Made by a program: the position numbers and the translations under genes. Positions 48,401-51,847 of a stretch of DNA of 62,606 bases are shown piece after piece (the stretch's first letter is position 1; every line of letters begins with the position of its first letter). Under the pieces are notes generated by a model that saw only the letters and a program-made list of their open reading frames with translations, did not search any database and had not been told where the DNA came from. This DNA comes from Thermoanaerobaculia bacterium. Its GTDB lineage: Bacteria; Acidobacteriota; Thermoanaerobaculia; Multivoradales; JAHEKO01. The stretch spans positions 1 to 62,606 of the forward strand of contig CALZIK010000030.1 of the NCBI GenBank assembly GCA_945787635.1. The letters run 5' to 3'.

Positions 48401-49468
48401 CTAACGCAGCAGGGCGACCGCTTTGATCTGAACGAAGACCCGTTTGCCTGGGGCGAGTTCGAGCGCCTCGGCCGACTTGCGGGTGACCCGCGACAGCAGC
48501 CTTACACCGGCGAGATCGAGCTTGACCGCGACCTGCGACCGGTCGAGATCAGCCAGCTCCTCGACCCGGGCCTCAAAGATGTTGAGAATGCTAGTCCCCT
48601 CCTGTCGCTCGAGCGTGAGGCTGACGTCGCGGGCGAGCACCCGAAGCCGAACCGAGCTCCCGATCGGGCGAGCGGCGCGCGCCACCGTGAATCTTCCCCC
48701 CGGAAAGTCGAGATAGCTCAGCTCGTGCTCGCGATCGTCGCCGGCCACCACTGCCTCGACCACCGCCGCGGCCTCGTCGGTCCGAGCCGGCGAAAGATCG
48801 ACGCGAGTCAGAATCTCGGCCACCGGCCCGGAGGCCGTCACCCGGCCGCTCTCGAGGAGCACTAGATGATCCGCCAGCCGAGCGACCTCGTCGGCTGCAT
48901 GGCTGACGTAGACGATCGGAATCTCGAGCTCGTGGTGCAGGTCCTCCAGAAACGGCAGGATCTCGGCTCGCCCGGTGAGATCCAGAGCCGAAAGCGGCTC
49001 GTCCATGAGCAGAAGCCGCGGCGAAGCGAGAATCGCCCGAGCGATCGCGACCCGCTGTCGTTCGCCTCCGGAGAGGTTCTCGGGCGCCCGGTCGAGGAGG
49101 TTGTCCAGGCCCAAGAGCTTCACCGCCTGGGCGCGCTCGACGCGTTTCGAAGCCCGGCGGCGGCGGCGCTCGGCGAAGTCGAGATTGCCGCGCACCGAAA
49201 GATGCTCAAAGAGGCTGGCTTCCTGAAAGACGTATCCCAATGGGCGGCGATGGGTCGGCACGAAGACGTCGTCGCTCTGCCAGACCTCGTCGCCGATCCG
49301 AAAGTACCCTCCGGGCGCCTCCTCGAGTCCCGCGATCGCGCGCAGGAGCAAGGTCTTGCCCGCCCCGGAAGCGCCGAACACCGCGGTCACTCCGCGCGCG
49401 GGCGCCTCGAGCCGGGCGTCGAGCCGGAACTCGCCGCGGGTCATCCGGAAGCGGGCCTCGAGCGTCAC
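48401..49468 (-). CDS. modC: Molybdate ABC transporter ATPase
   Basis: The 355-residue protein has a Walker [10 protein letters not shown]-loop [12 protein letters not shown], signature [15 protein letters not shown], Walker [13 protein letters not shown] and switch His in [16 protein letters not shown]. The C-terminal Mop/TOBE region ([46 protein letters not shown]) binds molybdate and is diagnostic for ModC. Its start overlaps the modB stop by four bases. It powers high-affinity molybdate import for molybdenum cofactor synthesis. Confidence 0.95.
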
Positions 49469-50142
49469 GACTTGCCCACCACATACTTTCGGTTGACCGA
49501 GTAGACGACCAGGAGCAAGGCGAACGAGAGAACGAGCAGCCCACCCGCCAGCAGGTGGGCACGGCCGTATTCGAGCGCCTCGACATGCTCGTAGATAGCG
49601 ATCGAAAGCACCCGGGTTTCACCGGGAATGCTGCCGCCGATCATGAGAACGACGCCGAACTCGCCGAGAGTGTGCGCGAAGCCCAGGACCGCCGCGGTGA
49701 CGAAACCGCGACGGGCGAGCGGCACGGCGACCGACCAGAACCGGTCCCAGGGCGAGGCGCCCAGCGTCGCCGCCACCTCGAGCGGCCGGTGACCGATACT
49801 CGCGAAGGCGTTCTCGAGCGGCTGGACGACGAACGGCAGCGAGTAGAGCACCGAACCGACCACGAGCCCCGCAAAGGTGAACGCCAGAGCCCGGCCGCCG
49901 AGCGCGTCGATCAGGCGCCCGACCGGACCCTGAGTGCCCAGCGCTACCAGGAGATAGAACCCGAGCACGGTCGGCGGCAGAACCAGCGGCAGAGCGACCA
50001 GCGCCTCGACCGCCGCCTTGAGCCGGAACCGGCTGTGCGCGAGCCACCAGGCGAGCGGCGTTCCCAGGACCAGGAGGATCAAGGTCGAGACCGCGGCCAG
50101 CTCGAGCGTCAGCCGCAACGCGGTCAGATCTTCAGCAGCCAC
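49465..50142 (-). CDS. modB: Molybdate ABC transporter permease
   Basis: The 225-residue protein has about five membrane helices ([62 protein letters not shown]) and the EAA-loop stretch [25 protein letters not shown] that docks on ModC. It is preceded by modA (31-base gap) and overlaps modC by four bases, so the three are one operon. Confidence 0.95.
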
Positions 50143-50173
50143 GACCTGCGATCCCCCGTCGGGTAGCGCTCAT

Positions 50174-50962
50174 TCAGGGAGTCTCATAGCCGTACTCACG
50201 GATCAGGGCGCGCGCGGGATCGCTCGCTACGAAACCGAGAAAGGCGCGCGCGAGGGTACCGTCTTTGACCAGCACGGCCTGCTGCTCGATCGGCGCGTGG
50301 AGCGCTTCTGGGACCAGCCAGTGCGAGCCGCGACCAAGCGAGCCCTCGGGACTCACCGCGACATCCCGGATCTGGGACCAAGCCACGAAGCCGAGCTCGG
50401 CATTGCCGCTCGCGACCATCTGAAATGCCTGGGCGACGTTCTCGCCCTGGACCAGACGGTTCGCCAGCTTGCCGGCGAGCCCCCGATTCTCGAGCGTCTC
50501 GAGGGCGGCCCGCCCGTACGGCGCCAGGCGTGGATTGGCGATCGCGATATGCCGGAAGCGGTCGGACTCGAGCACCCGGCCGTCGGCATCGACGAAGTCG
50601 GGAGCCGTGCTCCACAGCACCAGCCTGCCGACCGCGTAGGTAAAGCGGGTGCCGGCGACCGCAAGTCCGTCGTCCTCGAGCCGGCGCGGCCGTTCGGCGT
50701 CGGCCGCGAAGTAGATCTCGAAAGGCGCGCCGTGGACGATCTGGGAGAAGTGCTTGCCGGTCGACCCGGCGACCACGGTGACCTCATGGCCGGTCTCCGA
50801 CTCGAACCGAGACGCCAACTCCTTCATAGGCGCGGCAAAGTTCGCGGCCACCGCGACCACGACGGTGTCGGCTGCGGCGCTCGCCGGCACGAGAACCGCC
50901 ACGAGCGTCGCGAGAGTGAAGACCGCGACGTGGAGGCCCGAGCTGAATCGCGTAGCCGCCAT
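50174..50962 (-). CDS. modA: Molybdate-binding periplasmic protein
   Basis: The 262-residue protein has a signal peptide (VAVFTLATLVAVLVPASAAA) and the ModA fold: VVAVAANFAAPMKELASRFESETGHEVTVVAGSTGKHFSQIVHGAPFEIYFAADAERP and LAVAGTRFTYAVGRLVLWS. Residues of the oxyanion pocket should include the conserved Ser and Tyr in GSTGK and TYAVG. It lies 46 bases downstream of the monooxygenase-like gene on the same strand and is followed by modB and modC. Confidence 0.94.
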   Translation of the reverse strand: MAATRFSSGLHVAVFTLATLVAVLVPASAAADTVVVAVAANFAAPMKELASRFESETGHEVTVVAGSTGKHFSQIVHGAPFEIYFAADAERPRRLEDDGLAVAGTRFTYAVGRLVLWSTAPDFVDADGRVLESDRFRHIAIANPRLAPYGRAALETLENRGLAGKLANRLVQGENVAQAFQMVASGNAELGFVAWSQIRDVAVSPEGSLGRGSHWLVPEALHAPIEQQAVLVKDGTLARAFLGFVASDPARALIREYGYETP

Positions 50963-51008: not shown

Positions 51009-51287
51009 CTAGCGCGCGAGGTCGTGAAGGCTGAGATCGACCTCGCCGTCGATCAGCTCGGGATACCGGGCTCGCGCGACGGCGATGTGGTCGCTCGCGG
51101 CATGGGCGGCAAGCGCCTCGTCCGACGCCCACTCCTCGACGAAGGTGAACTCGGCGGCATCGGCGCGATTGCGCCAGAGCTCGTAGAGCCGGCAGCCTTC
51201 CTCGCGACGGGTCGGCTCGACAAGCTCTTCTAGAACCTCGAGTAGCTCCGCTTCCCTACCGGGCAGGGCTCTGAACTTCGCGATCAC
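51009..51287 (-). CDS. Antibiotic-biosynthesis-monooxygenase (ABM) domain protein
   Basis: A start at GTG 51287 gives 92 residues, the usual ABM size: MIAKFRALPGREAELLEVLEELVEPTRREEGCRLYELWRNRADAAEFTFVEEWASDEALAAHAASDHIAVARARYPELIDGEVDLSL. The dimeric ferredoxin-like fold can degrade heme or oxidise quinones, but many members are only stress-related. An ATG at 51356 would overlap the selenoprotein by 35 bases and adds no domain. It lies 34 bases after the selenoprotein stop and 46 bases before modA, so all could share a transcript. Confidence 0.85.
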   Translation of the reverse strand: MIAKFRALPGREAELLEVLEELVEPTRREEGCRLYELWRNRADAAEFTFVEEWASDEALAAHAASDHIAVARARYPELIDGEVDLSLHDLAR

Positions 51288-51321
51288 GCGCGTGCCGTGA
51301 CTCAGTCGAACCGCTCGCTTC

Positions 51322-51573
51322 CTACTGCCGGCGCGCTTCGAGCGTGGCGAGCACACTTTCGAAGTCCGGGTAGCCGGCGCCGAGCCGGCGGGTCAAGAAG
51401 TTGGCCTTGCGGACCGCGACGGTCTCTCCGTCGGCGATCACGTCGAACTGACCGACCGTACCGGCCTCGACCTCGGGTTCGACGCCGAGGCGCTCGTGAA
51501 TGAGGGCGGCGAGACTCGCCGCCTTGGCCTGGCTGTTCTCTCACGTCGAGCAGGCGCGAATCTGGATCTTCAT
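51322..51573 (-). CDS. SelW-like (Rdx family) selenoprotein with in-frame UGA
   Basis: An 83-residue reading frame starts at ATG 51573, four bases after a perfect GGAGG, and reads MKIQIRACST, then UGA at 51541-51543, then ENSQAKAASLAALIHERLG. Decoding UGA as selenocysteine gives Cys8-Ser-Thr-Sec11, the CxxU motif of Rdx (SelW/SelT/SelH) proteins. The rest follows the family: strand, helix, then AGTVGQFDVIADGETVAVRKANFLTRRLGAGYPDFESVLATL. A 19-nt hairpin lies 17 bases past the UGA (SECIS candidate) and tRNA-Sec is in the same window. Conventional gene finding would miss or truncate this gene. Family members are redox proteins of the thioredoxin-like fold. Confidence 0.88.
51505..51523 (-). promoter_or_regulatory. 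Bacterial SECIS candidate
   Basis: GGCGGCGA and TCGCCGCC pair perfectly around the loop GUC, which can also be read as an AGUCU apical loop. The stem starts 17 bases after the UGA at 51541-51543, and the loop is about 26 bases from it, within the range known for bacterial SECIS elements. SelB would bind it to insert Sec. Confidence 0.65.
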
Positions 51574-51847
51574 GGGTCCTCCAACAAAACGGTAGCACGA
51601 GAGCAAGCTGCTCCTCTCACTCGGACAAGACGGTCGCCGCTTGTCGTTTCTCAAAGAGTTCCGGCTTGCATGGGGCCGCCGCGGCGTTCTGCGGATCGAT
51701 TGCGGTACCAGCGGCCGAGCCAAACGGGCGCGGGCGAAAACGCGACGCAAGACACGAGCCCTTGACGAGCGGCCGATGAAAGATTACTATTTGTATTAAG
51801 CGCAACTCGCAACCCTCAGTCACTCTTCGTGCCGTCTCTAACCGTCG
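51574..51847. other. Intergenic region without a recognised gene
   Basis: This stretch holds the upstream region of the selenoprotein operon on one strand and of the kinase fragment/Kelch gene on the other. I see no complete gene, tRNA or strong terminator. An AT-rich block around 51778-51800 (GATTACTATTTGTATTAAG) is the most promoter-like part. Confidence 0.4.

Follow-up and report, generated by a model that had tools for sequence, protein, structure and literature searches.

Since at least 2005, bacteria have been known to possess selenoproteins of the SelW-like kind, which carry a CxxU redox motif. The published bacterial SECIS elements carry a G within a small apical loop (PMC1088965), and Cys homologues of SelW-like proteins are noted to be very scarce or lacking where bacteria use Sec (PMC1794560). 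In this study we analysed a window of 62,606 nucleotides from a Thermoanaerobaculia bacterium of the Acidobacteriota, the term window meaning this whole stretch, in which a short frame on the minus strand is interrupted by UGA. We hold with high confidence that this gene (51573-51322) reads the UGA as selenocysteine and that its product is a small redox protein belonging to the known SelW family.

The frame had been proposed by a sequence-only reading of the window and is present as described: it opens with ATG at 51573, meets TGA at codon 11, continues through 72 sense codons and ends with TAG at 51324-51322, so that the product reads MKIQIRACST-UGA-ENSQAKAASLAALIHERLGVEPEVEAGTVGQFDVIADGETVAVRKANFLTRRLGAGYPDFESVLATLEARRQ-TAG. 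With UGA taken as Sec, the expected CxxU active site appears, and relatives likewise carry Sec at position 11. The GGAGG ribosome-binding site, the 19-nt hairpin starting exactly 17 nt after the UGA and the tRNA-Sec gene named in the same reading were all recovered (Table 1). GC content by codon position is coding-like (75/46/88%), and the gene is absent from a mechanical standard-code ORF list of the window, which bears out the expectation that standard gene finding overlooks it. In the window, which is GC-rich, 19% of all TGAs precede at least 72 sense codons, so that openness after the TGA carries no weight by itself; what raises the candidate above chance is the conserved protein downstream of the UGA together with the conserved UGA and the conserved hairpin.

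Table 1. Predicted features of the SelW-like locus and the tRNA-Sec gene in the window.
Feature	Position	Strand	Details
SelW-like selenoprotein gene, long-loop form	51322..51573	minus	83 aa, active site C8-S-T-U11
In-frame UGA, Sec codon 11	51541..51543	minus	conserved TGA in relatives
GGAGG ribosome-binding site	51578..51582	minus	4 nt before ATG
Bacterial SECIS hairpin	51505..51523	minus	8 bp, 3-nt loop GUC, 17 nt after UGA
tRNA-Sec, UCA anticodon	4045..4140	minus	ARAGORN and Rfam RF01852

The gene is followed on the same strand by one for an ABM-domain (antibiotic biosynthesis monooxygenase) protein (51009-51356, minus), whose true start probably lies further downstream than the listed GTG, because the listed start overlaps the SelW-like gene. 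Also downstream is a modABC-like molybdate uptake cluster (48401-50962, minus), where ModA matches TIGR01256 with 204.6 bits and ModB and ModC are named from sequence only. The ABM, ModA, ModB and kelch neighbours of the window gene were found at no other locus, many of these loci having flanks of 1.5 kb only, and the few ModC matches elsewhere are distant ABC ATPases. As the neighbours did not recur at these loci, no operon-based function is claimed.

The machinery for selenocysteine is complete in the source genome. The tRNA-Sec is genuine by Rfam RF01852 (73 bits, cut-off 47), with which ARAGORN agrees, and all three protein genes that the sequence-only reading had suggested looking for are present: SelA (E 4.5e-101), SelB (342 bits, cut-off 242) and SelD, with two genes above the cut-off. 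One SelD gene (G000:C151:2790-3722, L050) carries an internal in-frame TGA and is a probable Sec-SelD; the other (C195, L051), free of TGA, sits in an open frame of 864 residues and is perhaps a fusion. Across the class, SelA occurs in 137 of 149 genomes, in 106 of 109 near-complete ones and in all 70 genera. Formate dehydrogenase, usually a selenoprotein in bacteria, is perhaps not dependent on Sec in the source genome, where none of 19 formate-dehydrogenase-like matches has an internal TGA. A link between the adjoining molybdate cluster and a Sec enzyme was considered and dropped, the FdhA (TIGR01591) matches being below the cut-off and none of them having an internal TGA.

Relatives keep the UGA almost without exception and are conserved on both sides of it. 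A scan of public genomes gave 12 loci, ten with TGA at the Sec position, the other two being L004, with a Gly codon (GGA) there, and L013, apparently a chance match. Of 37 matches in near relatives, 36 contain a single TGA, and the remaining match is an unrelated frame (E=0.0015). A SelW-like match occurs in 132 of the 149 class genomes, and 145 of the 146 matches contain the in-frame TGA; the sole exception begins at profile position 17, past the Sec site. All 36 matches at E<=1e-12 in a sample of the phylum have it as well. A few SelW-like matches show a second stop, mostly a second TGA, and one long-form gene (L088, G241:C577:5545-5796) has an extra in-frame TAG, due to decay or sequencing error. 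No Cys form at the Sec position was found among the matches in near relatives, the 149 genomes of the class or the phylum sample, even though the single-sequence queries had Cys there, in agreement with the published rarity of SelW Cys homologues (PMC1794560).

A sense codon other than Cys at this position in close relatives had been named beforehand as something that would refute selenocysteine. It was seen once, in L004 (6001-6267), the only long-form relative lacking UGA, which has CPAG at the Sec site and two of the eight hairpin pairs broken; its nearest relatives in the set (L063, L087 and L092) keep TGA and read CPTU. L004 may be a decayed copy, may truly have lost Sec or may reflect a sequencing error.

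The spacing from the G-x-F strand to the aromatic-Pro position divides 71 distinct genes into two kinds, with 20-21 residues (48 genes and one without the Pro) or 26-28 residues (22 genes). The window gene belongs to the long kind, with 7-8 residues added in the stretch that joins the beta hairpin to the last helix. Cys8 and Sec11 are invariant in 13 long members. Within the class, 14 of the 149 genomes carry the long form, with 15 genes between them (E below 1e-22), and further examples come from scattered families elsewhere in the phylum and from a single locus (L005) filed as Planctomycetota; neither of two same-genus genomes has it, both having the short form only. The proteins closest to that of the window are L002 (59% identity) and L003 from the acidobacterium Ca. 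Polarisedimenticola svalbardensis (55%), and genes of the same family follow with 48-52%. A further locus (L084), from a genome marked as belonging to the same phylum, is 100% identical to L003 over 3252 bases, and this makes Acidobacteriota the most likely phylum for the window, which would fall in a class other than Ca. Polarisedimenticolia. Loss and transfer are both possible reasons for this patchy distribution. We propose tentatively, and with more doubt than conviction, that the long-loop proteins make up a separate SelW subfamily, always selenoproteins, patchy in Acidobacteriota and a few other phyla, whose insertion of 7-8 residues binds a partner or substrate of its own.

The hairpin after the UGA, GGCGGCGA-GUC-UCGCCGCC, might be thought a by-product of the GC-rich codons for AASLAA, with Sec directed by some other signal or not inserted at all. 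Folding energies speak for this, because synonymous recodings fold almost equally well (the difference is only weakly significant per gene, mean z about -1.0), as is to be expected where the AASLAA codons and the high GC favour a hairpin anyway; the comparison with synonymous shuffles was thus replaced by covariation as the test of the hairpin. RNAalifold, run on 21 long-form genes, returned the same eight pairs and 3-nt loop without their being specified beforehand, the first loop base being G in all 21. The stem starts 17 nt after the UGA, or 14 nt in some genes. In the RNAalifold alignment 97.6% of cells are paired, against 88.3% when shuffled and 31-62% when slid. Four of the eight pairs show two-sided, compensatory changes, and covariation reaches 0.319 against 0.138 for shuffled alignments, none of 500 shuffles being as high. 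When genes of both forms are taken together, the wobble bases of the second Ala codon and the fourth codon form a pair in all 71 (39 C-G and 32 G-C; shuffles average 36, maximum 53), and those of the first Ala and fifth codons pair in 70 of 71, counts which shared ancestry inflates, yet both C-G and G-C are used even within the short form. Pairing moreover outlasts changes of the residues themselves, to VASLVT (L087, L063), ATSLVA (L089) and AARFAA, and all 42 apical Ser codons are AGU, while AGU makes up 8% of Ser codons in ten window genes. Such perfect covariation between two solutions, the pairing kept through residue changes and the constant AGU make the by-product explanation very improbable. 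Judged by these patterns of substitution, the 8-bp hairpin is a bacterial SECIS, and its features match those of the published elements (PMC1088965).

The same observations bear on whether the locus is a pseudogene, left when an Rdx gene that once had Cys was disrupted by a random UGA. A stop in frame at codon 11 and the patchiness of the long form in its family would suit decay, but the TGA is kept at the same codon across the phylum at 40-60% protein identity with the downstream part conserved and no Cys form found, the hairpin is conserved, and the GC pattern by codon position fits a working coding frame; we consider a pseudogene exceedingly unlikely. Reading of the UGA as Trp or Cys by recoding or suppression has nothing in its favour here beyond the general existence of UGA-to-Trp recoding in some bacteria, and it is just as improbable, given the genuine tRNA-Sec with SelA, SelB and SelD, the SECIS-type hairpin after the codon and the several homologous genes in the same set that use TGA as their own stop.

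The identity of the protein was examined through its family and fold. The window protein scores 17.4 bits with Pfam Rdx (PF10262), under the cut-off of 22.6, and 20.2 bits with NCBIfam SelTWH_Campy, whose cut-off is 88. Rdx is nevertheless matched at E<=0.1 by 12 of 13 long members (best E 1.9e-13) and TIGR02174 (CXXU_selWTH) by 11 of 13 (best E 1.2e-11), which favours the family relationship that the sequence-only reading had asked to be checked, with Sec in the relatives. A single-sequence PDB search gave no useful match; a profile matches PDB entries 2oka, 2fa8, 2obk and 2p0g. A profile comparison with a mammalian SelW sequence serves as a lead only, and the mouse SelW structure 2npb was recovered independently among the Foldseek PDB matches.

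The AlphaFold model (pLDDT 90.5) has the order beta-alpha-beta-beta-beta-alpha and places C8-S-T-U11 between the first strand (3-8) and the first helix (12-29). The best 23 Foldseek PDB matches are all SelW-family entries or the homologue MIEN1. The ranking runs through 2oka, 2p0g, 2ojl, 2obk, 3dex and 2fa8 to mouse SelW and MIEN1, with thioredoxins after these. As modelled, the protein has a SelW-type thioredoxin-like fold, in which the extra loop residues are folded as a short helix (59-63) ahead of the conserved Pro, with lower confidence there (block means 80 and 74).

In the mechanism we propose, SelB with Sec-tRNA-Sec would recognise the hairpin that closely follows the UGA and insert Sec at position 11. 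The product would be a small thioredoxin-like protein whose CxxU selenenylsulfide redox site consists of the Cys8-Sec11 pair. Both the incorporation of Sec and the redox activity are what we infer from the family, by analogy with which the protein is most likely a thiol/selenol oxidoreductase.

What is new here is modest, namely the patchy long-loop subfamily and the fact that family models cover it poorly, the window member being below the curated cut-offs. With this gene an acidobacterial genome gains a short selenoprotein that is easily missed, in a class where Sec use and the Sec form of SelW are near universal and no Cys replacement was detected, and the covariation at synonymous sites provides a clean SECIS model that could aid the annotation of such genes.

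Compared with the SelW-related structures from Proteobacteria (2oka, 2fa8, 2obk and 2p0g), the modelled fold is alike (TM 0.67-0.77 by query length); these we take to be Cys proteins, whereas no Cys form was found in the window subfamily. The source genome holds a second SelW-like selenoprotein gene (G000:C146:90257-90424), of the same family and likewise CxxU with TGA, but of the classic short form, which is near class-wide while the long form is patchy. With the bacterial SelW-like family (SelT/SelW/SelH, Rdx, PF10262, TIGR02174) the window gene shares the CxxU after the first strand, the predicted thioredoxin-like fold, the G-x-F-E/D-V hairpin and a bacterial SECIS just past the UGA. It differs in that its subfamily has GQFDV or GQFEV where most known bacterial SelW-like proteins have GVFEV, and in that 26-28 residues separate the GxF strand from the conserved Pro, against 20-21 in the known proteins.
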